Shown: in pieces, positions 52,929-64,000 of the stretch
Layout of the letters: each line of letters starts with the position of its first letter
Numbering within the stretch: the first letter of the stretch is position 1
Notes under the pieces: model-generated
The model's database searches: none
Told to the model about the DNA's origin: nothing
What the model saw: only the letters and a program-made list of their open reading frames with translations
Made by a program: the position numbers and the translations under genes
From: Microbacteriaceae bacterium VKM Ac-2854
GTDB lineage: Bacteria > Actinomycetota > Actinomycetes > Actinomycetales > Microbacteriaceae
Assembly: GCA_013205085.1 (NCBI GenBank)
Contig: JABMLH010000007.1
Span: forward strand, 62,001 to 126,000
Reading direction: 5' to 3'
DNA: 64,000 bases

Positions 52929-54212
52929 CTACGTGGTCTTCACCGCGTTGTCGCCGTGATTGCCGATGACCTCGTACGCGGTCGAGCCGACGGCTCGGAC
53001 GGGCTTGGCGTTCATGTGGCCGGTCGCCCACTGATTGCCCACAACGGCGAGGGCCGTCACATTCGTGGCCTGCACGCAGTGGGTCCAGCCGGCGCCCGCA
53101 TCCTCGCACGCGAAGATGTTGCCCGTGACGTTGAATCCGGTCGTGCGCGCGGTGGTCGAGACGCCGGTGATCTGGATGGCGGGGTAGGTGTTCGCGGCCG
53201 CCTTGCCGCCGTTCGAGATCGCGTTGCCCACGATCTGGATCTCGGCCAGGTCGCTGGTCAGCCAGGCGGGCATCGTGTAGACGAGAGACTGCTTGCGCGC
53301 GCCCTCCATGATGTTGTTGGCGATCGTGATCCGCCGGTTGCCGCGCAGCTCGATGTTCGTCTGCGGGGATCCGTCGAGGTGGTTCGCGAGGATCCGCAGC
53401 GGCCCGCCCTCGACCGAGATGTTGGTCTCGCTGGAGCCGATGTTGTTCTCCACGATCCAGGAGTCGATCAGTCGGTAGCTCGCCCAGATGCCGATCCCGG
53501 TGCACTGGTCGATGTTGCAGCGCTGGATGCGGTTCAGCAGGCCCAGATCGCCGAAGGTGCCGTCGTTGAGTCGGATGCCGTATCCGGTCCAGCCGTACAG
53601 CTGCAGTCCCTCGAAGGTCGTTTTGTCGATGTGCGCCGAGATGCACGGCGAGCCGAGGTAGGCGCCGTCGAGGATGAGGTTCTCCAGGCGGCAGGTGTCC
53701 CAGGCTCCGGTGATGATCGGCGCGTTCGTCGTCGCCCGGATGCGCGTGGCGAGTTCGCCGGCGCCGCGGATCGCGATCGCCGCGAGTCCGCCGGCCCGCC
53801 CGATCGATCCCGAGACCTGGTAGATGCCACGCGGGAACCAGATCGTGCCGCCGTAGCTGGCCACCGCCGCATCGATGGCGGCGTTGATCGCGGCGAGGTC
53901 GTCCGTCACGCCGTCGCCGACTGCGCCGAAGTCCTGCACGTTGTACACCAGCTCACCCTGGCCCACCGGGGGAGTGCCGCCGGCCGTCTTCACCTCGTCG
54001 GGCAACTGATCCAGCGGCACCACGGCATCCGTGTCGAGCGCTGCGACGCCGCCGGCCTCGCCGACCTCGGAGTGCAGCACCGGATCCGTGGGGGCGGCGA
54101 GGGCCGCGGGGGCGGTGCGGGCCGGGACGAGACCGGGGGCCGCGCCCGCGAGAGGGGAGGCGAGCAGTCCGCGGCGGCTGAGCTCGCCGGCGACGAAGAG
54201 GGGGGATGACAT
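52929..54212 (-). CDS. Tat-exported right-handed beta-helix protein, pectate-lyase-like
   Basis: A 427-residue protein with a Tat signal [12 protein letters not shown] at residues ~12-23, so likely exported folded. The mature part starts with the Pectate_lyase_3/GH28-like motif VQDFGAVGDGVTDDLAAINAAID, then repeating strand turns (RLENLILDG, NIDQCTGIG, RITIANNIMEG, EIQIVGNAISNG) that make a parallel beta-helix. Such folds cleave or bind acidic or other polysaccharides. It lies divergent to the polysaccharide synthesis genes and may trim or modify their product. The ATG at 54212 is preferred to 54290. A catalytic triad cannot be assigned from sequence. Confidence 0.82.
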   Translation of the reverse strand: MSSPLFVAGELSRRGLLASPLAGAAPGLVPARTAPAALAAPTDPVLHSEVGEAGGVAALDTDAVVPLDQLPDEVKTAGGTPPVGQGELVYNVQDFGAVGDGVTDDLAAINAAIDAAVASYGGTIWFPRGIYQVSGSIGRAGGLAAIAIRGAGELATRIRATTNAPIITGAWDTCRLENLILDGAYLGSPCISAHIDKTTFEGLQLYGWTGYGIRLNDGTFGDLGLLNRIQRCNIDQCTGIGIWASYRLIDSWIVENNIGSSETNISVEGGPLRILANHLDGSPQTNIELRGNRRITIANNIMEGARKQSLVYTMPAWLTSDLAEIQIVGNAISNGGKAAANTYPAIQITGVSTTARTTGFNVTGNIFACEDAGAGWTHCVQATNVTALAVVGNQWATGHMNAKPVRAVGSTAYEVIGNHGDNAVKTT

Positions 54213-54342
54213 GAGGGTGACGTTCCGGCACGCCGAGGGCCGCGTCAAGCTCCCGTCTCCGGGGCAACGGATGAAGCGACCAAGACTCATTCACCGAATG
54301 GGGGCTGTCGCTGGCCGACGGATGCCGGTTGACTCGGCCCCC

Positions 54343-56667
54343 ATGGCGCGCGATCCGGGACTCAAGACGTTCGACCTCGTCGTGGCCGGTGTGCTGGCGC
54401 TGATCGCCCTCGGCATCGTCGGCTACTCCACGTTCCTGCTCATCCGCACCCCGCCGTTGAGCTGGGCCTTCGTCGTCGCGTTCGGCCTGGCGGTCATCCT
54501 CTGCGCCGCCTACCGGATCGACCTCGGCCGCCGATCGGGCATGCCGATGATGGGCATCGTGGTGCCGCTGCTGCTGATCGCGCAGCCGGGCGCCGATCCG
54601 TTCCGCCTGGTCGGCATCTGGACGGCCGCGCTCTTCGTCGCGCAGATGCTGCATACCCGCAACGTCATCGTCGCCGGCTACATCAGCGGGCTCGGCGCCC
54701 TCGCGGCCCTCGCCTACGTCGAGGTCTTCGACCTCATGCGCGACTCCGGGGTGCCCTTTCCGATCGACCTGCTGGTGGCCACCGCGGTGTATCTCCTCGT
54801 CATTCTCGGCATCGACTTCATCCGCCAACGCGGGCGGTGGGGGCTGAATCACGAGCTCGGCTTCGGCGGGCTGATCCCGCGCCGGATCGCACAGGTCTTC
54901 GCTCTGCTGTGGGGGCTCGGCTCGGTGCTGTACTTCCTCGACCGCACCGTGGTGCCGGCGATGGCGAACGACCCGGCGATCGAGCAGAGCCCGATGCTCG
55001 TGCTCGTCGTCTCGGCGATCATCTTCGCGGTCGCGATGTCGGCGCAGGTGGGCGAGGTGCAGCGCCGGCTCTCCGCGGTGGTGTCCGCCGCCACGTCGCT
55101 GCCGTGGCGCACCCTCGCGGAGGCCGAGGAGCGGGTCACCGACGCGACCCGGCACTCCATCCAAGCGGATGCCGTGGCCATGAGCCCGGACCCGGCGACG
55201 GGCACCGACATCGGCGCCGCCGTCGAGCTGCCGGGCGGCGGACTGCGCTACCTGGTCGCGACGCGGGGGCTGAGCTCCTCGCCGTTCACGGACGACGATG
55301 AGCGGGTGCTCGGCGCCCTGGCGCACCTGGCCACCGACACTCTGCGCGCCCGCGCCGACGTCGAGACCCTGCAGCGCTCCGTCGACACGGACGCGCTCAC
55401 CGGCCTGCCCAACTACCGCGCGTTCCAGGCGGCGCTCGCCGAATCCAACGCGGTGCGGGCGGGTGACGACGCGATCGCCGTGCTCTTCATCGACCTCGAC
55501 GACTTCAAGAACCTCAACGACGGCCGCGGGCACCACGTGGGCGACAAGATGTTGAAGCTGGTGGGCACCCGGCTCGCCGAGACGGTCGGCGACACCGGGT
55601 TCGCGGCTCGGGTGGGTGGCGACGAATTCGTGGTCATCCTGCAGGAGCTCTCCTCGCTGGACGAGGCGCGAGAGCGCACGGACGCCTTGGTCGAGGCGGT
55701 CAGCCGCGTCGAGACGGTGGACGGCGACACCCTCGCCCCGGTGGTCAGCATCGGCGTCGCCTACTCGCCGAGCAAGGAGCGCGACCCGGCGCAACTGGTG
55801 ATCGACGCCGACCAGAGCATGCTGGCGCTGAAACGCTCGCGGCACGGTGAGCGCCATCGCACCAGCGGCTTCGACGTCGCCGCTTCGCGGAGCAACCCGG
55901 TGACGGATGCGGTGATCGCCGCGGTGCAGGATGGCGCACTGGAGGTGGCGTATCAGCCCATCGTCGAGGTGGCCACCGGCACGATCTGGGCCTTCGAGGC
56001 CCTGGTGCGTCTGACGGATCCCGTTCTCGGCCCGATCCCGCCGATCACGATCATCCGCAAGGTGAAGACCCTCGGCCTGCTCGACGAGCTCACCGTGCAG
56101 GTGACCGAGAAGGCGATGCAGGCGGCGATGCAGTTCCGCGCGACGAACGCCGGCGTCACCTGCATGACGGTGAACGTCGACCTGCCGCAGATCGCCGAGA
56201 ACCGCCTCGGAGCGTTCCTTCGCGGGCTGCCCGACCGTTTTCCGGAGCTGCGGATCTGCATCGAGCTGAACGAGCGCTCGCTGCGACTGGCCAGCGACGC
56301 GCTACGCAGGCAGGCGCAGGTGCTGCGGGATTCCGGTGTCCTGATCGCCCTGGATGATTACGGCTCGGAGAGTTCCTCGGTGGCCGCGATCGCCACCTTC
56401 CCACTGGACATCATCAAGATCGATCGCAATCTCATCCTCGATCTGAGCGATATCCGACAACGCGAGATCGTGCGATCTATTCAGGCCTATTCGGATGCGG
56501 TGGGCTTTCGAGTAGTGGTGGAAGGAGTGGAGGATAAGGGCTCACTGACGATTCTTCGAGAACTCGGCGTGACCGATGTGCAGGGCTTCCTCTACGGCCG
56601 TCCTGACACACTAACGGGGTTGGAAAAGCGGCTTCTGGCGACAGGATCGATTGCCGTCGTCCTTTAG
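54343..56667 (+). CDS. Membrane GGDEF-EAL protein, c-di-GMP turnover
   Basis: A 774-residue protein with six or so spans in residues 10-230, then a GAF-like linker, a GGDEF domain and an EAL domain. The GGDEF motif (G425-F429 in RVGGDEFVVIL) is intact, so it may synthesise c-di-GMP. An inhibitory RxxD site is not seen at its usual position. The EAL domain begins FEALVRL (E552) and keeps VNVDLPQ, ELNERSL, DDYGSE, KIDRNLI and VVEGVED, so it could also degrade c-di-GMP. First gene of the polysaccharide set. The start is uncertain: in-frame ATGs occur at 54298 and 54322, none with a good ribosome site. Confidence 0.9.
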   Translation: MARDPGLKTFDLVVAGVLALIALGIVGYSTFLLIRTPPLSWAFVVAFGLAVILCAAYRIDLGRRSGMPMMGIVVPLLLIAQPGADPFRLVGIWTAALFVAQMLHTRNVIVAGYISGLGALAALAYVEVFDLMRDSGVPFPIDLLVATAVYLLVILGIDFIRQRGRWGLNHELGFGGLIPRRIAQVFALLWGLGSVLYFLDRTVVPAMANDPAIEQSPMLVLVVSAIIFAVAMSAQVGEVQRRLSAVVSAATSLPWRTLAEAEERVTDATRHSIQADAVAMSPDPATGTDIGAAVELPGGGLRYLVATRGLSSSPFTDDDERVLGALAHLATDTLRARADVETLQRSVDTDALTGLPNYRAFQAALAESNAVRAGDDAIAVLFIDLDDFKNLNDGRGHHVGDKMLKLVGTRLAETVGDTGFAARVGGDEFVVILQELSSLDEARERTDALVEAVSRVETVDGDTLAPVVSIGVAYSPSKERDPAQLVIDADQSMLALKRSRHGERHRTSGFDVAASRSNPVTDAVIAAVQDGALEVAYQPIVEVATGTIWAFEALVRLTDPVLGPIPPITIIRKVKTLGLLDELTVQVTEKAMQAAMQFRATNAGVTCMTVNVDLPQIAENRLGAFLRGLPDRFPELRICIELNERSLRLASDALRRQAQVLRDSGVLIALDDYGSESSSVAAIATFPLDIIKIDRNLILDLSDIRQREIVRSIQAYSDAVGFRVVVEGVEDKGSLTILRELGVTDVQGFLYGRPDTLTGLEKRLLATGSIAVVL

Positions 56668-56775
56668 GATTGCGACAGAACGGGCCTGCCAGACCCCCAG
56701 CCGTTCGGTTCTCTGCCCTCTGTGTCGAAACCCGAAATCGACATGTTCCAGTCTGCCGATCGGAAAAGGACACCG

Positions 56776-58761
56776 GTGCTTCGCACGTTCTCCACCCCCG
56801 CCATTGCTCTCGCGCTCGCCGCGGCATTCGTGATCACCCCGCTCACCCCGGCCTTCGCGGATGACGTGATCGACCCCGCGACGGGGGCGGTCATCGACGC
56901 CCTCGCCCAGCCCGGCTCGATCTCGATCGCCGCCGGTTCTCAGGTGCAGTACCTCACTCTGCCGATCGCGGCCGGGGTGACCCCGAACCGCCTGATCGCG
57001 ACCGTGACGGACACCGCGCCCACGACCGGGACGTTGAGCGTGATCGTCTCGGGTCGGATCGTGCAGACCCTGGACGCTGCGACGCTGACTGCGCTCGATG
57101 TGCCGCTGGAAGCCGGAGACGTGGTCGACGGGGTGCTCGCCGTGGGCTTCCAACTGGACAGCGCCGACGCGACCGGTGGGGTGCTCTGCGGCGCGGCGAC
57201 CGGCCGCGACCTGACCATCGACGACGTCTCCCTGGTGGCCGACACCATCGCCGCCCCGCCGTCGACCTTGGCCGAGTTCTTCTCGCCGGCGATCACCACG
57301 ATCGACGTGGTGATCCCCGATGGCTCCGACGACGACCTGCGTGCAGCGGGCCTCTCGGCGGTCGGTTCGCTGGCCGACCGCTACGACTCCGGAACCGCGA
57401 TCACCCTGCGCGAGGCGGGATCCGCCGCTCCGGCCCTGAACCCGGCGCAGAGCCGCGTCGTCGAGTTCACGGCAGGCAGCGGCGACGTGACCACCACGAT
57501 CGACCCGACCGATGTCGCGACGGTGCAGATCTCCGGTGACGAGGCGAAGCTCGCCGCCGCCGGAGCGGCCCTCGGTAGCGCATACGCCGGGCTGGCCGCG
57601 AGCGTCACAACGAGTGGCCTGAGCCAGACGGTGACCCCCTCCAGCTCGCTGGAGCACAGCCTGGCCGACTTCGGTGCCGAGCGCATCGTGCTCGGCTCGG
57701 CCGCACAGGCCGCGAGCTACACCACCGTGTCGCAGGCGGCCTTCGGCGGCCCGGTCTCCTCCGTCGAACTCGGCCTGGTCGGCACGCACTCCGCGATTCC
57801 GAGCGGCATCACCGCCACCATGAACGTCTACTGGAACGACTTCCTGATCGGCTCCTCGGTGCTGGGCGCCGAGACCGCGATCGACGAGAAGCTCACGGTG
57901 CCGACGAGTGTGCTCACCGCGTCGAACGGGCTGAGTGTCCGGCTCTCGGCCGCGACCACTGACGGCGGGCTCTGCATCGGCTCCGGCTCGGTGCCGATCG
58001 AGCTCTTCCTCGACGGCGGCGCGAGTACTGTGACCGGGGTGCGCGGCGAATCCGTCTCGCCCGGCTTCGAGCGCTTCCCGCAGGCCTTCGGCGGCGCGCT
58101 CACCGTCGCCTTCGGCGATGAAGCGGGCGGAGCGGATGCGGCGGCCGCGGCGGGTGCGATCGTCGCGTCCCTGCAGCGCATCGCTCCGGATCCGTTCGCC
58201 GTGACCGTCGTGCCGGCCGACGACTTCGTCTCCTCCGATCTCTCGGGTGTGCTGGTCGGTGCCTCCGCCGACGACGCCGAGGCGCTGAAGACGCCGCTTC
58301 GTCTGTCGGCGTTCACCGCCATCGCGGGCACCGGCGTGGACTTCGGCGTCGACACGGGCGCCGCCTACGCGGCGCTGCAGGCGTTCAGCACCGACGGCCG
58401 CGACGTCGTGCTGCTGGGCGGATTCGCGCCGGAGGGTACCGATCCGGCATCGGCATCGCCGCTGCAGTCGGGCATCGGCGCGTACCTCGACGCGCTGCCC
58501 GGCGGTTGGTCCGCGCTCTCGGGCAACCTGCTGGTGAACCTGGCCGGCGCGGATGAGCCGGTGCAGCTGGACAGCAACGAGATCACGCCGCAGGCGGAGG
58601 TGAAGGACGACTTCTCGGGCTACGCGATCTGGTTGGTGCTCGCGATCGTGGTGATCGCGGCGCTGATCCTCGCGGGCTGGCTCGTGCGCCGCCGCCGAAA
58701 GCGCAAGGTCGCGGAGTACGTCGACGCGCAGGAGCGCGCCGCCGATACTCCCACGGACTGA
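56776..58761 (+). CDS. BcsB-like secreted, membrane-anchored protein
   Basis: A 661-residue extracytoplasmic protein. The signal peptide (LRTFSTPAIALALAAAFVIT, cleavage near AFA-DD) is followed by alternating beta-sandwich and alpha/beta modules: LPIAAGVTPNRLIATVTDT, then LAEFFSPAITTIDVVIPDG, then a second pair (VELGLVGTHSAIPSGITATM, FGGALTVAFGDEAGG). A C-terminal membrane span (YAIWLVLAIVVIAALILAGW) ends in a basic tail RRRRKRK. This order, carbohydrate-binding and flavodoxin-like pairs plus C-terminal anchor, is that of BcsB, the partner of cellulose synthase. The GTG at 56776 has an AAGGA site; a GTG at 56722 is the longer option. Confidence 0.82.
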   Translation: MLRTFSTPAIALALAAAFVITPLTPAFADDVIDPATGAVIDALAQPGSISIAAGSQVQYLTLPIAAGVTPNRLIATVTDTAPTTGTLSVIVSGRIVQTLDAATLTALDVPLEAGDVVDGVLAVGFQLDSADATGGVLCGAATGRDLTIDDVSLVADTIAAPPSTLAEFFSPAITTIDVVIPDGSDDDLRAAGLSAVGSLADRYDSGTAITLREAGSAAPALNPAQSRVVEFTAGSGDVTTTIDPTDVATVQISGDEAKLAAAGAALGSAYAGLAASVTTSGLSQTVTPSSSLEHSLADFGAERIVLGSAAQAASYTTVSQAAFGGPVSSVELGLVGTHSAIPSGITATMNVYWNDFLIGSSVLGAETAIDEKLTVPTSVLTASNGLSVRLSAATTDGGLCIGSGSVPIELFLDGGASTVTGVRGESVSPGFERFPQAFGGALTVAFGDEAGGADAAAAAGAIVASLQRIAPDPFAVTVVPADDFVSSDLSGVLVGASADDAEALKTPLRLSAFTAIAGTGVDFGVDTGAAYAALQAFSTDGRDVVLLGGFAPEGTDPASASPLQSGIGAYLDALPGGWSALSGNLLVNLAGADEPVQLDSNEITPQAEVKDDFSGYAIWLVLAIVVIAALILAGWLVRRRRKRKVAEYVDAQERAADTPTD

Positions 58762-58763
58762 TC

Positions 58764-60455
58764 GTGACCACGGTGCTCGCTCCGGTGCGGCGGCATGCCG
58801 AGCCGACGCCCGAGCGGCGCGAGGCCTGGCTGGCGACCGCCTGGCGGGTGCTCGGCGAGCCGGTCACCGGCCGGAAGGTGCCCGGCACCGTGGTGGTGCT
58901 GGTGGTCTCGTTGATCGTGGGCTTCATCGCCTGCCTGGTGACGACCTCCTCGGGCATCAACCTCGCCTACGCGGATACGCAGAGCCACCTCGCGATCTCG
59001 CGGCGCATCTTCGACTCGAAGGCGCCCGGATTCACGCAGCTGGGCACGGTGTGGCTGCCGATCCCGAGCCTGATCCTGATCCCGTTCGTGCAGTCGCTCT
59101 GGCTCTGGCACACCGGCTGGGCGGCCGGCCTGCTGGGCATGGTGTGTCTGGCCGGCACGGCCTGCGGCGTGTACCGGATCTCGGCGCGGGTCGGGCACCT
59201 GCGCGCCGGACGGATCACCGCGGTGCTGCTGGTGCTGGCGAATCCGAGCGTGCTCTACGCGTTCTCGACCGCGATGACCGAGCCCGTGCTGATCCTCACC
59301 ATGGTCGGCTGCTTCGCCGGGCTCGCGCACTGGGTGACCAGCAGGCGCAACCTCAGCGCCGGCGAGATGATGGTGTTCTCGGGGCTGCCCGCCGCGGCTG
59401 CGACGCTCTCCCGCTACGAGGGCTGGGTGCTCGTGGTCGGCGGCACCTTCGTGGTGCTGCTGGTGGCGTGGCGACGCACCGCCTCCTTCCGCTACGGCTT
59501 CAAGATGGCGTGCGCATTCGGCATCCTGCCGCTGGTCGCGATCCTCTGGTGGTTGACGTACAACTTCACGATCTACGGCAACGCGCTGGAGTTCGCGACG
59601 GGGGAGTACTCCGCGTCAGCGTTGCAGAAGGCGACGGCCGACGCGGGTCTGCTCGCCTACCAGGGCAATGTGGGCCTCACGCTCTGGAGCTACAACTGGG
59701 CCGTGCTGGAGACCTCCGGGCTGATCACCGTCGCGCTGGGAATCGCCGGCGCGCTGGTGCTGGCCTGGAAGCGCGGTATCTCGGACGACGCGCTGGTGAT
59801 CTGGCTGATGATCGTCTCCTACGCCTTCTCGCTGCTGAGCCTGTACCTCGGCCAGACGCACATGAACAACGACCACACGCTGCCGACGAACTGGTGGAAC
59901 AACCGCTACGCGCTCTCGGTGCTGCCCTTCCTGGCCGTGCTGGCGGCGGTGGGGGTGGACGCGTTCCGGCGGCTGCCCCGGATCGGCGTCGGCGCGCTCG
60001 GGCTGGTGGTGCTGCTGCTCGGCGGGCAGACGGTGTGGTGGGCGCAGGATCTGAACCGCTCGGCCGTGATCGCCGAGGCGACCGGGTACATGGGGCTGAT
60101 GGATCGCTCCGGCGCTTTCGCGGCGTCGGCCTACCTGCGGGAGAACTACGACGGCGGCGGTGTGCTGATCGACGAGTCCGCGGCCGGCAACGCCCTGTTG
60201 CCGCTGATCGGCATCCCGCTGAGCGACTACTACAACCGCTCGACGGGTGAGCTCTTCGACGAGGCCCTCGCGCAGCCGTACACGCACGCGAAGTGGGTGT
60301 TCGTGACGACGGCGGATGCGCCGGGCCTGAGCGAGACCGGCGTGGCGGATCTGGTCTACGCGTCGATCACGAAGGACCACTCGTTCGACACCCGCTACCG
60401 GGTCGCCTTCGCCCAGGGGAACTACGTGATCTACGAACGGTTGGGAGAGTCGTGA
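58764..60455 (+). CDS. Multi-spanning GT-C-type glycosyltransferase
   Basis: A 563-residue membrane enzyme with roughly ten to twelve spans. The first loop has LAYADTQSHLAISRRIFDS, whose acidic residue is the probable catalytic Asp of GT-C enzymes (PMT/ArnT type, GT39-like). A C-terminal soluble part (residues ~450-560) lies outside. These enzymes use polyprenyl-linked sugars. It begins 2 bases after the BcsB-like gene and overlaps the synthase gene by 4 bases, so all three are one unit. Its sugar and acceptor are not predictable. Confidence 0.8.
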   Translation: MTTVLAPVRRHAEPTPERREAWLATAWRVLGEPVTGRKVPGTVVVLVVSLIVGFIACLVTTSSGINLAYADTQSHLAISRRIFDSKAPGFTQLGTVWLPIPSLILIPFVQSLWLWHTGWAAGLLGMVCLAGTACGVYRISARVGHLRAGRITAVLLVLANPSVLYAFSTAMTEPVLILTMVGCFAGLAHWVTSRRNLSAGEMMVFSGLPAAAATLSRYEGWVLVVGGTFVVLLVAWRRTASFRYGFKMACAFGILPLVAILWWLTYNFTIYGNALEFATGEYSASALQKATADAGLLAYQGNVGLTLWSYNWAVLETSGLITVALGIAGALVLAWKRGISDDALVIWLMIVSYAFSLLSLYLGQTHMNNDHTLPTNWWNNRYALSVLPFLAVLAAVGVDAFRRLPRIGVGALGLVVLLLGGQTVWWAQDLNRSAVIAEATGYMGLMDRSGAFAASAYLRENYDGGGVLIDESAAGNALLPLIGIPLSDYYNRSTGELFDEALAQPYTHAKWVFVTTADAPGLSETGVADLVYASITKDHSFDTRYRVAFAQGNYVIYERLGES

Positions 60456-62383
60456 CCGGGACGCGCACCAAGCGGGTCGGTGAGATCCTGCTCGACGCCG
60501 GGCTGATCTCGACGGAGCAGCTCGACGCCGCGCTGGCCGCCCAGGCGCGCGAAGGCGGCCTGATCGGCCGACACCTCATCCTGGACGGGGCCGTCTCGCG
60601 CCGCGAGATGTACCAGGCGCTCGCCCAGCAGTGGGATGCGCCACTGGTCGATCTGGTCGAGGAGCCACCGGACCCGGCTCCCCTGGCCCGGATCGGCGCC
60701 GAGACCTTGGTCGAGGCGGGGTGGGTGCCGTGGCGGCAGGAGGCCGACGGCGCGATCGTGATCGCCACGTCGGTGCCGCCGACGGATGAGGTGCTCGATC
60801 GGGCGAGGAGCGTGCTCGGCACCGCCGAGATCCGCGTGCGCACCACCACCGACTGGGACATCTACCAGGCGGTCGAGAACGCCTGCCGCGCCGCGCTGCT
60901 GTTCGGCGCCTCCGACTCCCTCGCCGTGAACAGCGGCGACGAGTCCGCGAAGTCGGGCCTGCGCAAGTGGCAGGTGATCACGCCCATCGTCTTCGCCGCC
61001 CTGGTGGTCGTCGGAGCGTTCTTCTCGCCGAGCCTCGCCTTCGTGGTGCTGCTCTCGGCCGCGAACCTGCTGTTCCTGATGAACATCGCGTTCAAGGCCC
61101 TGGCCGGCATCCGCGCGCCGCTGAACAAGAACGAGAAGGTGGCGTGGCAGGAGGAGGTCGCGCTGGAGCGCGGCCGACGCGGGCTGCCGATCGCGACGCG
61201 CCGGCTGCCGGACGACGAGCTGCCGATCTACACGATCCTCGTGCCGGCGTACAAAGAGGCGAACATCATCAGCAAGCTGCTGGTGAACCTCGGCGCGCTC
61301 GACTACCCCAAGTCGAAGCTCGAGGTCATGGTGCTGCTCGAGGCGGATGACGACGAGACGATCGCCGCCGTGCGACGTATGCGTCCGCCGGAATACGTCC
61401 GGATGGTGATCGTGCCGCCGGGTGGCCCGCAGACCAAACCGCGCGCCTGCAACTACGGACTGAGCTTCGCGCGCGGCGAGTTCGTGGTGATCTACGACGC
61501 AGAGGACCGCCCGGATCCGGATCAGCTGCGCAAGTGCGTCGACCTGTTCCGTCAGGACGCCTTCGAGCGCGAGTTCGTGGACCCGACGCAGAAGCAGCTG
61601 GTCTGCCTGCAGGGTGCGCTGAGCTATTTCAACGCCGACTACAACGTGCTCACGCGGATGTTCGCGGTGGAGTACGCGCACTGGTTCGGCGCGATGCTGC
61701 CGGGTCTTGACCAGTCACACCTGCCCATCCCGCTCGGCGGCACCTCGAACCACTTCGAGACGAACGTGCTGCGCCGGCTCGGCGCGTGGGATCCGTACAA
61801 CGTCACGGAGGACGCCGACCTCGGCCTGCGGGTCGCCGCGCACGGCTACCGCGTCGGCGTCGTCGACTCCAACACCTGGGAAGAGGCGTGTGCCGAGGTG
61901 GGCGCCTGGATCAAGCAGCGCACCCGCTGGATCAAGGGCTACATGATGACCGCGGGGGTGAACACCCGGCACCCCATCCGCTGGTTCCGGGTCAACGGCT
62001 TCCTCGGCGCGCTGAGTCTCGTGGCGCTGATCATGGGCACACCGGTCGCCTTCCTGCTGTATCCACTGGTGCTGGGCTTCACGCTGGTGACCTACATCGG
62101 CGTGCAGTTCTTAGGCCTGAATCTGCCGGAGTGGCTGATCATCGCGGGCACTACGAACATGCTGTTCTCGAACGGGCTGATGATCGTGGTCTCCGGCATC
62201 GCGGCCTGGAAGCGCTACAACTGGCGGGTCGCGATGTTCGCGCTGCTGAACCCGGTGTACTGGGTACTGCACTCCATCTCGGCGTGGCGCGCCGCCTGGC
62301 AGATCGTGTTCAGCCCGCACCGCTGGGAGAAGACCCCGCACGGCCTCACGGAGGAGTACGAGGACTCGTCGGTCACGACGTAG
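60452..62383 (+). CDS. GT2 processive glycan synthase with N-terminal MshEN c-di-GMP-binding domain
   Basis: A 643-residue synthase. Residues 8-31 and 37-60 form the two 24-residue MshEN motifs, five residues apart: R8-V-G10, G17 and Q31 in the first, L37-I-G39, G46 and Q60 in the second. MshEN domains bind c-di-GMP tightly. Two spans follow (near 172-220), then the GT2 domain with Y348-D349-A-E-D352, T452-E-D454 and the processive Q489-R-T-R-W493, then four or more C-terminal spans. This is the cellulose-synthase-like order without a PilZ domain. The GTG overlaps the previous stop. E. coli NfrB couples a GT2 to an MshEN domain similarly, but at the other end. Confidence 0.9.
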   Translation: MTGTRTKRVGEILLDAGLISTEQLDAALAAQAREGGLIGRHLILDGAVSRREMYQALAQQWDAPLVDLVEEPPDPAPLARIGAETLVEAGWVPWRQEADGAIVIATSVPPTDEVLDRARSVLGTAEIRVRTTTDWDIYQAVENACRAALLFGASDSLAVNSGDESAKSGLRKWQVITPIVFAALVVVGAFFSPSLAFVVLLSAANLLFLMNIAFKALAGIRAPLNKNEKVAWQEEVALERGRRGLPIATRRLPDDELPIYTILVPAYKEANIISKLLVNLGALDYPKSKLEVMVLLEADDDETIAAVRRMRPPEYVRMVIVPPGGPQTKPRACNYGLSFARGEFVVIYDAEDRPDPDQLRKCVDLFRQDAFEREFVDPTQKQLVCLQGALSYFNADYNVLTRMFAVEYAHWFGAMLPGLDQSHLPIPLGGTSNHFETNVLRRLGAWDPYNVTEDADLGLRVAAHGYRVGVVDSNTWEEACAEVGAWIKQRTRWIKGYMMTAGVNTRHPIRWFRVNGFLGALSLVALIMGTPVAFLLYPLVLGFTLVTYIGVQFLGLNLPEWLIIAGTTNMLFSNGLMIVVSGIAAWKRYNWRVAMFALLNPVYWVLHSISAWRAAWQIVFSPHRWEKTPHGLTEEYEDSSVTT

Positions 62384-62476: not shown

Positions 62477-63223
62477 TCAGATGTTGAGACGGTTGAAGAT
62501 CGGCGCCGGTAGCAGGCGGATGACCGTCATGATGACCAGCCACTTGCTCGGCAGGTAGGCGACCGGACGTCCGGCGGCGATCGCGGCGGCGACGCCCTGC
62601 GCGACCGACTCGACGCTCGCGAGCGAGCCGCCCTTCGCCTTGAGCTGCGCCGTCATCGGGGTGTCCGTCGGGCCCGGCTTGATCAGCACGATCCGCAGCC
62701 GGCTGCCCGCGAAGCGGTGCTGCAGACCCTGCGCGTAGCGTTCGACCAGGCCCTTCGCCGCGCCGTACACGTAGTTCGTCTTGCGGCCGCGGTCGCCCGC
62801 GACGGATCCGATCACGCCGATCGTGCCGGCCGCCATCGCGTCCGCGAACGCCTCCATCCATAGTGCGACCGAGACCGCGGTGACCTGCAACGTCTCGTTC
62901 GCGACCGCGAGGTCGGCCTGAGCATCCGCCTGCTCGGCCATGGATCCGTGCGCGATCAGCACCGTGTCGGGAGCGCCGCCGTCGAAGCTCGCCGAGACGG
63001 CGCTCCGGATGGCGTCGACCCCGGTCAGTTCGGTCGCGATGACCGAGACGGTGGCGGCCGGGAAGCGCACCCGCAGGTCCGTCGCCAGCGATTCGAGTTT
63101 CGCCTCGTTGCGACCGATCAGCACGGCCGCGCGGGTGCCGCCGCCCAGCCAGATCCGCAACGTGTGCTCGGCGATCGCGCTCGTGGCGCCCACGAGCACC
63201 GCTTTCGACGGTTGTCCGGCCAT
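62477..63223 (-). CDS. Short-chain dehydrogenase, DprE2-like
   Basis: A 248-residue SDR: the coenzyme loop GATSAIAE, the catalytic YGAAK (Tyr and Lys), the Ser in GSVAGDRG, and PGPTDTP. It resembles DprE2, the reductase of the decaprenylphosphoryl-ribose to arabinose conversion. Its start is two bases from the stop of the DprE1-like gene on the same strand, as for dprE1-dprE2. In Microbacteriaceae these enzymes may make other sugar lipids. Confidence 0.85.
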   Translation of the reverse strand: MAGQPSKAVLVGATSAIAEHTLRIWLGGGTRAAVLIGRNEAKLESLATDLRVRFPAATVSVIATELTGVDAIRSAVSASFDGGAPDTVLIAHGSMAEQADAQADLAVANETLQVTAVSVALWMEAFADAMAAGTIGVIGSVAGDRGRKTNYVYGAAKGLVERYAQGLQHRFAGSRLRIVLIKPGPTDTPMTAQLKAKGGSLASVESVAQGVAAAIAAGRPVAYLPSKWLVIMTVIRLLPAPIFNRLNI

Positions 63224-63224
63224 G

Positions 63225-64000
63225 TCAGCTCCCCAGGATTCGGCGGGAGAACTCCGAGCTGATGCCCGGGTCTCGGTACTGCAGGAATTCGTCCAGCCGC
63301 GGGTAACCAGCGGCGAAGAGTTCGGGCGTCATTCGCGCATCCTTCGCCGGATACAGTCGCCCACCCGCTGTCGACACGATCGCGTCGAGTCGCGCGAAGA
63401 GCGGGTCGATGCGTTCGGTGTTGGGGAAGTCGAGGGCGAAGCAGATGCCCTCCTCCGGAAAGCTCAGCAGGCCGGGCGACTCCAGCGGCCCGAAGGTCTT
63501 CAGGACGCCGAGGAACGAACCGGTGCCGGAGCCGGCGATGACCGCGAGCATCTCGCGGGTCGCTTCGGCGCCGCCGGCCCACGGGATCACACTCTGGTAC
63601 TGGTAGAAGCCGCGCGGACCGTACATGGTGTTCCAGCCGGCGATCGCGTCGAGCGGATAGTAGAAGCTCTCGTAGTGCTGCACGCTGCGCCGGGCCCGGA
63701 GCGTCTTCATCCGGTAGTAGGCGCGGTTCAGCAGCGGCAGGCTGGCGCGGTTGACGACCGACAGCGGGAACTCGAACGGCACCGTGACGGTTCGGGCGCG
63801 GCCGGTGCCGCGCGCGGGGGCCGACGTGGCATCGCCGCGGGTGTATACCCCGCGTCGGCCGCCGTCGGTGGTGACGTCGATCCAGCCGACCGTGTGCTCG
63901 AAGACCTCGGTCGATTCGTGCACCAGGGCGAGGTACTCGTCGAGGGTCTGGAACGGGATGTCCTCCGCCAGCAGCCACGGCCCGGGAACGCGCTTCAGCC
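63225..64000 (-). CDS. FAD-dependent oxidoreductase, DprE1-like, 5' part beyond window
   Basis: The C-terminal 258 residues of an FAD-linked oxidase; the FAD-binding half lies past position 64000. It begins in frame at the window edge with LKRVPGPWLLAED and contains HTVGWIDVTTDG, YYPLDAIAGWNTMYGPRGFYQYQ and the C-terminal FPNTERIDPLFARLDAIV. This matches DprE1-type oxidases, which oxidise the 2-OH of decaprenylphosphoryl ribose. With the following SDR it forms an epimerase pair. It is not truncated biologically. Confidence 0.82.
   Translation of the reverse strand, partial: LKRVPGPWLLAEDIPFQTLDEYLALVHESTEVFEHTVGWIDVTTDGGRRGVYTRGDATSAPARGTGRARTVTVPFEFPLSVVNRASLPLLNRAYYRMKTLRARRSVQHYESFYYPLDAIAGWNTMYGPRGFYQYQSVIPWAGGAEATREMLAVIAGSGTGSFLGVLKTFGPLESPGLLSFPEEGICFALDFPNTERIDPLFARLDAIVSTAGGRLYPAKDARMTPELFAAGYPRLDEFLQYRDPGISSEFSRRILGS

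Follow-up and report, generated by a model that had tools for sequence, protein, structure and literature searches.

A probable cyclic diguanylate-gated polysaccharide synthase locus of the bcsB-xagBC (sfz) type in Microbacteriaceae bacterium VKM Ac-2854

The computational analysis of a stretch of 64,000 nucleotides from Microbacteriaceae bacterium VKM Ac-2854 (hereafter the window, C16:62001-126000 in a host genome of 4.75 Mb and 18 contigs) has revealed a locus of four plus-strand genes. With some reserve, the locus probably encodes a synthase-dependent machine for a polysaccharide, gated by cyclic diguanylate (c-di-GMP) and of the bcsB-xagBC (sfz) type. Its genes, domains and motifs, their linkage and their conservation were observed directly. 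The core trio formed by the BcsB-like, GT-C-type and glycosyltransferase family 2 (GT2) genes recurs in several phyla, the locus being the actinobacterial version of a widespread, barely studied family. Genomes and loci used for comparison carry G and L numbers, respectively, and cited papers are quoted from partial texts. The features of the locus are the following:

54343..56667, plus strand: GGDEF-EAL membrane protein (protein 1), with Pfam GGDEF and EAL matches and their motifs; start codon uncertain, the frame being open from 54031
56776..58761, plus strand: BcsB-like protein (protein 2), assigned by profile comparison with the BcsB family and by hydropathy
58764..60455, plus strand: putative GT-C-type polytopic glycosyltransferase, XagC-like, with a C-terminal soluble part (protein 3), assigned by D71/H75 (DTQSH) and profiles
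60452..62383, plus strand: MshEN-GT2 synthase, XagB-like (protein 4), assigned by Pfam and NCBIfam models and motifs
60473..60631, plus strand: MshEN_N c-di-GMP motif pair of the synthase, 24-5-24 residues, protein residues 8-60 (NF053729)
60635..60886, plus strand: rest of MshEN (PF05157 match in Pfam)
61229..61939, plus strand: GT2 catalytic domain, residues 260-496, with DAED, TED and QRTRW (GT2 models and motifs)

The four plus-strand genes and their order within 54343-62383, as given by the original prediction from the nucleotide sequence, were confirmed by the open reading frames. Recomputed intergenic spacings gave the same values (108 bases, 2 bases and a 4-base overlap), the 108-base gap presuming that the BcsB-like gene starts at GTG 56776, with its longest open reading frame beginning at 56722. 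A scan of the locus for promoters and terminators found none. Family profile searches matched GGDEF-EAL and MshEN-GT2 directly in the window proteins.

Protein 4 matched three GT2 models above their cut-offs and carries DAED, TED and QRTRW (QxxRW) motifs together with C-terminal hydrophobic segments, the topology of all the proteins being taken from hydropathy alone. Its N-terminal part had been predicted to contain an MshEN domain, and this is borne out by two models, both above cut-off: NF053729, the NCBIfam c-di-GMP motif model (56.1 bits, cut-off 38, residues 8-60), and Pfam MshEN PF05157 (42.5 bits, cut-off 23.1, residues 62-145). With residues numbered as in MshE and the motif taken from the text available of PMC5013675, the domain consists of two 24-residue motifs joined by a 5-residue linker, in which R9, G11, G18, Q32, G40, G47 and Q61 are kept, with V for L10, L for R38, I for L39 and M for L54. 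R9, G11, Q32, G40, Q61 and the 24-5-24 spacing are likewise kept in L036, L037, L038, L040 and L041, and Q32, G40 and Q61 in L103, L104 and L113.

By hydropathy, protein 2 has a signal-like N-terminal segment and one C-terminal hydrophobic segment, its large middle part being presumably extracytoplasmic. Its Arthrobacter relative (L106) matched Pfam BcsB with 24.6 bits (cut-off 21), and PF03170 was matched at E <=0.1 by 16 of the 21 members of alignment A4. In a single comparison, a profile of 15 actinomycete rows (A2) aligned over 588 columns, with a hhalign probability of 99.1 and E 5e-19, to a profile of 9 rows (A7) made of E. coli BcsB and relatives from Bacteroidota, Ignavibacteriota and Thiobacillus. 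When non-actinomycete relatives were added to the query, E. coli BcsB was found with probability 64.5.

The relative of protein 3 in L106 matched PMT_2 with 31.0 bits (cut-off 26.1), and in alignment A5 (18 rows), where D71 and H75 (DTQSH) are among the invariant columns, PMT_2 was matched by 3 and PMT by 2 of the 18 members at E <=0.1. These PMT-type matches in part of the set, together with the polytopic layout, suggest that protein 3 is a GT-C-type enzyme. The A5 profile aligned over 460 columns (hhalign probability 98.9) with A6, a profile of 10 XagC-like neighbours that includes Xanthomonas L142 and Thiobacillus L158, Sfz3 itself being absent from the set. Since both profiles align over almost their full length, XagC-like proteins and protein 3 of the window constitute one family.

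Protein 1 matched EAL (158.8 bits) and GGDEF (124.4 bits) above the Pfam cut-offs, with GGDEF and EALVR motifs present and a hydrophobic N-terminus; a motif scan found no RxxDxxxRxGG I-site pattern. The local GGDEF-EAL gene of the original prediction therefore stands, although the prediction missed that the only GGDEF, EAL and MshEN detected in the genome (one of each, in a search that left HD-GYP models aside) all sit in this locus. No PilZ was matched in this genome by a profile search that did not extend to BldD/RsiG-type receptors. In G045, a genome of the same genus, neither a GT2 relative passing the cut-off nor any GGDEF, MshEN or EAL was matched. Across eight family genomes with the module, 13 GGDEFs were counted (G000 1, G116 2, G007 2, G070 1, G083 4, G146 2, G065 1 and G027 0), and 8 of them are located no more than 10 kb from a GT2 of the module (1, 1, 1, 1, 3, 1, 0 and 0 in the same order), when 0.13 would be expected. 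In the loci of the family survey a GGDEF gene is frequently near the module in variable position, and a GGDEF/EAL-type match of at least 40 bits was found, within the stretch examined, in 17 of 80 loci of the named set.

The family survey detected relatives of the GT2 (E <=1e-40) in 22 of 150 genomes and BcsB-like genes (E <=1e-5) in 8 of the 150, at 10 loci. All 10 BcsB-like genes are accompanied by GT-C and GT2 genes, the G065 set being split over two contig ends and the GT2 of G027 facing its GT-C and BcsB-like genes. The predicted co-occurrence of the four genes thus holds for the core trio, the GGDEF gene being often close with no fixed position. A class survey found GT2 relatives in 34 of 394 genomes, and a contig scan at least 587, of which the best 80 were retained; among these are members of Chloroflexota, Thermomicrobiota, Bacteroidota, Acidobacteriota, Gemmatimonadota, Pseudomonadota, Synergistota and Bacillota, and the idea of an actinobacterium-specific gene set was dropped. 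Among the matches listed, from which the species of the window itself may be missing, the nearest named synthase is that of Rathayibacter iranicus (85% identity; DNA 82% over 3.6 kb), which makes Rathayibacter the probable genus of the host. A quick tree places the window in one group with G116 and R. iranicus (SH-aLRT 99), inside an eight-row clade that also includes Subtercola and others (SH-aLRT 98), all with the order BcsB-like, GT-C, GT2 (BCS-GTC-GT2).

The arrangement was further analysed in 125 GT2 matches from 123 stretches, with 26 classified as BCS-GTC-GT2, 35 as BCS-GT2-GTC, 49 as GTC only and 15 as other; since resemblance to the window governed the choice of loci, and the same loci served to iterate the profiles, these shares are not natural frequencies. 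The class of GTC only includes L041, with its BCS on a different contig, and a few loci cut by contig ends, and the class of others includes L043 and L110, which carry both partners on the opposite strand. Of 119 GTC-profile matches, 111 are found at most 300 bases from a GT2 match, a zone that makes up 14% of the searched DNA, and 63 of 68 BCS matches at most 2.2 kb away (36% of the searched DNA). A 5-kb measure (BCS 65/68, GTC 117/119) was discarded because 65% of the searched DNA already lies within 5 kb of a GT2.

Catalysis, gating, substrates, the direction of regulation and the polymer itself can be proposed by analogy with BcsAB, NfrB and GT-C enzymes. The GT2 would polymerise a nucleotide-sugar at the inner face of the membrane and extrude the chain, the BcsB-like protein would guide it outside, and the GT-C enzyme would add a sugar outside the membrane from a polyprenyl-phosphate donor. 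The GGDEF-EAL protein would set the local c-di-GMP level, to be read by the MshEN of the GT2 itself, and such control by a local cyclase has a supporting precedent in NfrB (PMC8669469).

The original prediction was right about the four genes and left the flanking ones unmentioned. These genes are the following:

52929..54290, minus strand: right-handed beta-helix protein (pectate-lyase/rhamnogalacturonase-like); PF12708 54.4 bits and PF13229 27.7 bits, both above cut-off
62477..63223, minus strand: short-chain reductase resembling DprE2, in convergent orientation to the synthase gene; 120.7 bits with the DprE2 model of NCBIfam, short of the cut-off of 250
63225..64000, minus strand: DprE1-like flavin adenine dinucleotide oxidase, C-terminal part in the window, the gene extending to about 64499; NF053785 351.1 bits, below its cut-off of 500; PDB DprE1 match
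L183:3077-3952, plus strand: UbiA-type decaprenyl-phosphate phosphoribosyltransferase, next gene beyond the window; NF008978 327.7 bits, above its cut-off of 207

The beta-helix gene and the GGDEF-EAL gene are divergently oriented, and homologues of the former occur in L103, L036, L037 and L104. Its product is a candidate polymer-cleaving or -modifying enzyme, presumably secreted, that may trim or release the polymer.

The mycobacterial decaprenylphosphoryl-arabinose pathway includes UbiA, DprE1 and DprE2, and three homologous genes lie side by side here. On the other hand, the DprE1 and DprE2 models (both equivalogs) stay below their cut-offs, and the enzymes would serve a GT-C of another family. 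For the DprE1-like protein, PDB DprE1 was matched with E 1.6e-73, and the nine PDB sequences found at E <=1e-10 are all DprE1 entries. The top model of the DprE2-like protein is a generic short-chain dehydrogenase/reductase (202.5 bits, cut-off 267), and only the UbiA-type gene (PDB 8j8j, E 1.2e-64) exceeds its curated cut-off. The adjacency of Dpr/UbiA-type genes to the GT2, seen in the window stretch, recurs in L037, L104 and L113, and Subtercola shows it too. A DprE1-like gene is present in 5 of the 150 family genomes, three with the module (G000, G116 and G007) and two without a BcsB-like gene (G064 and G066), a co-occurrence with Fisher p 0.001, uncorrected for kinship. It is also present in 4 of 17 chosen module genomes, including R. 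iranicus, S. boreus and a Subtercola metagenome-assembled genome, in a set that overlaps the family survey (G083 and G146 are in both, and L109 and L110 match the survey genomes G070 and G027). The adjoining DprE1/DprE2-like and UbiA-type genes suggest a lipid-linked arabinose-type donor, for which polyprenyl-phosphate arabinose, or a comparable pentose, is a candidate in the Rathayibacter/Subtercola branch.

A more ambitious extension, which we put forward tentatively and think more apt to fail than to hold, is a closed c-di-GMP circuit. In it, the sole cyclase/phosphodiesterase and the sole recognised receptor, both encoded in this locus, would run one synthase. The chain would be arabinosylated outside the cell by a GT-C enzyme, whose donor would come from a polyprenyl-phosphate-arabinose pathway of mycobacterial type that operates in bacteria without mycolic acids. 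If true, this would be a minimal natural c-di-GMP circuit of one enzyme and one receptor, free of the many paralogues of E. coli, and, should the Dpr link be real, lipid donors of the arabinose type would be used for secreted polymers beyond the arabinogalactan bacteria. To our knowledge, the bacteria concerned are not known for arabinogalactan.

Several results weigh against the polysaccharide machine and its arabinose step. Protein 2 did not match Pfam BcsB (PF03170), nor did its counterparts in L103, L104 and L109, so that the BcsB-like second protein of the original prediction stands by profile comparison, on sequence evidence, and not by a Pfam match of its own. Against E. coli BcsB alone, A2 gave a hhalign probability of 1.4. 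Protein 3 matched no Pfam family, A5 gave a probability of 4.5 against E. coli ArnT alone, and searches of PDB with the BCS and GT-C profiles returned no structure of either kind, all matches being at chance level. Among the eight genomes with the module, three lack a GGDEF near a locus or altogether (G065, G027 and, for its C2 locus, G146), G065 being too fragmented for judging this proximity. The DprE1-like gene is absent from 13 of the 17 chosen module genomes, including all six Arthrobacter/Paenarthrobacter genomes, Pseudoclavibacter, G083 and G146; it is not adjacent to the module in G116 (same contig, about 25 kb away) or in R. iranicus (another contig). As it is missing from most of the chosen genomes, the arabinose step would be a branch feature at most.

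The remaining adverse results concern the MshEN domain. Position R38 is Leu in the window, with Arg in just 3 of the 13 rows of the exact motif table. Q32 is lost in G426, Q61 in G503 and both in G313, and Ala replaces Q32 in six Arthrobacter/Paenarthrobacter loci, though GGDEF/EAL genes follow the GT2 in five of them. The wider table of 125 GT2s missed the first three motif positions, and therefore only Q32, G40 and Q61 were counted; the covered loci that keep all three number 12 of 24 for BCS-GTC-GT2, 4 of 23 for BCS-GT2-GTC, 4 of 32 for GTC only and 2 of 14 for the others. These losses would be expected if the synthase worked as proposed with MshEN as a structural or assembly domain, no longer a sensor, and the GGDEF-EAL protein acted elsewhere. 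Such an arrangement is unlikely for the window, given that the conserved contacts and spacing described above are retained there and in its relatives, that the cut-off of the curated motif model is exceeded and that the genome offers no other GGDEF, MshEN or PilZ match. Moreover, NfrB binds c-di-GMP through a domain that its authors call fully conserved (PMC8669469), and in the alignment made here its R9 and Q32 positions carry other residues, so one altered half-site is compatible with binding. Since the key contacts are rarely all kept in the wider set, gating by c-di-GMP cannot be family-wide; the residue pattern makes it plausible for the clade of the window, not for the family at large.

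Several variants of the synthase were also observed. Two module copies per genome occur in G083 (L038/L039) and G146 (L044/L045), and L039, L044 and L045 carry P or Q at R9 and keep R38, the reverse of the window pattern. In the actinomycete loci L095, L097 and L099, the BcsB-like and GT-C-like genes accompany a GT2 that matches the profile only from position 129, apparently without MshEN. A second GT2 branch with a GTC-like neighbour, in which no BcsB-like gene was found, is represented by L046, L047, L049, L054 and similar Microbacteriaceae loci, with K at Q32 and D at G40. In G116, the intact synthase gene is followed after about 1.4 kb by a GT2 remnant (L036:7532-7906, G116:C20:175640-175897), which in a frame of 125 residues shares 91% identity with residues 548-633 of the synthase in the window and corresponds to a partial duplication. 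The module is kept without any GGDEF or EAL match in the 1.4 Mb genome G027 (L043, 8068-9945, and L110). Its synthase, still matched by PF05157, has lost MshEN motif I, with F at Q32, A at G40 and S at Q61, and shows changed key residues in motif II; the joint absence of GGDEF, EAL and motif I speaks for the gated machine proposed here. A second, PilB-sized MshEN frame is present in that genome. PF05157 matches were found in 84 of the 150 family genomes, and most of those with high scores (60-87 bits) fall in frames some 550-650 residues long, which are PilB-type-ATPase-sized by length alone and have no counterpart in the genome of the window.

A further alternative concerns the activity of the GT2, which might not be a polymerase but instead make a polyprenyl-phosphate sugar for the GT-C enzyme, the product being a wall polymer or a glycolipid decoration. 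The 49 of 125 GT2s that are paired with a GT-C-like gene without a BcsB-like one (a few of them cut by contig ends) and the genes for lipid-linked sugars that flank the locus fit this proposal, which is nevertheless quite improbable. The flanking genes would already supply a lipid-linked donor, a BcsB-like partner is present, the TED and QxxRW motifs and the C-terminal hydrophobic segments resemble those of processive synthases, and cellulose synthase is among the relatives of the GT2 with solved structure (E 2.7e-6). A divergent cellulose synthase (Bcs), to which the BcsB-like partner and the relation of the GT2 to CelA (TIGR03030, 40.1 bits) could point, is very improbable, given that this score does not come near the cut-off of 699.1 for CelA, with no PilZ in the GT2 or matched in the genome, a GT-C partner and, in X. 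cucurbitae, a full-length BcsB (725.6 bits) besides the XagB-like gene (L142), so that both kinds coexist.

The synthase-dependent polysaccharide machine remains the preferred explanation, and it resembles several known systems. In the literature considered, mostly titles and abstract openings, no description of such a locus in Actinobacteria, no GT-C assignment for XagC/Sfz3 and no Dpr link were found, nor any paper on DprE1 with Microbacteriaceae. BcsAB shares with the locus a processive GT2, a BcsB-type partner and control by c-di-GMP, and differs in having PilZ instead of MshEN and no GT-C annotated in the K-12 bcs stretch, besides the low CelA score of the window GT2.

NfrB/NfrA/YbcH of E. 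coli also combines a GT2 controlled by MshEN with a dedicated local cyclase (PMC8669469, PMC8669472). However, its MshEN is C-terminal, it includes the outer membrane protein NfrA, no GT-C is annotated in nfrBA-ybcH, and the window GT2 does not belong to the NfrB equivalog (32.0 bits, cut-off 1170). The texts available record NfrB homologues in Eggerthella (PMC8669469), the clustering of nfrA and nfrB with a homologue of BcsB in A. xylosoxidans (PMC8669472), MshEN-glycosyltransferase fusions noted in 2016 (PMC5013675) and, for Leptospira, MshEN in GspE only (PMC12943098).

The Xanthomonas XagABCD system has an XagB-like MshEN-GT2 (L142, 39% identity to the window) with an XagC-like neighbour. 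It differs in that no adjoining BcsB-like gene was found in L142, assigned as xag by gene order and not by annotation, where the next genes encode a 340-residue protein and a GH113 protein. This xag-like operon of Xanthomonas cucurbitae (L142:7953-12113; GH113, 111.2 bits) would lie, with its XagB-like gene, about 7 kb from the full-length BcsB if contig C4 is that of L142. In X. oryzae pv. oryzicola, an rpfG mutant depends on xagB for its enhanced biofilm formation (PMC3609779).

The closest published counterpart is the bcsB-xagB-xagC(-xagD) cluster of Fe oxidisers (Kato 2015, PMC4643136), and sfz1-3, from the sfz1-4 cluster of Ferriphaselus and Mariprofundus, have been linked to stalks by comparative genomics (PMC8250860). 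In the same partial text, Sfz3 has no function assigned and its gene measures 1,499-1,535 bp, for about 500 residues. The claim of the original prediction that this is not a described system is thus too strong, a comparable trio having been published as bcsB-xagBC/sfz1-3 in another gene order (BCS-GT2-GTC). The results point to XagC-like proteins, and by extension Sfz3, acting as GT-C enzymes, and therefore offer a mechanism for the stalk clusters of iron oxidisers and the biofilm clusters of Xanthomonas. Compared by published description and not by sfz sequences, the parts accessible of these reports mention no Dpr/UbiA or private GGDEF-EAL gene and do not call the N-terminal domain MshEN. 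They describe a BcsB-like protein, a GT2 with an N-terminal EpsE-like type II secretion system domain (IPR007831) and, as the third member, a protein some 500 residues long. The alignment between the XagC-like neighbours of GT2s of this kind and the GT-C of the window covers nearly the whole length. The IPR007831 region of the sfz/xag GT2 is what we take to be the MshEN region. The window contains all three elements: a synthase with an N-terminal MshEN-type domain, an adjacent BcsB-like protein, recognised by profile, and an adjacent XagC-like protein.

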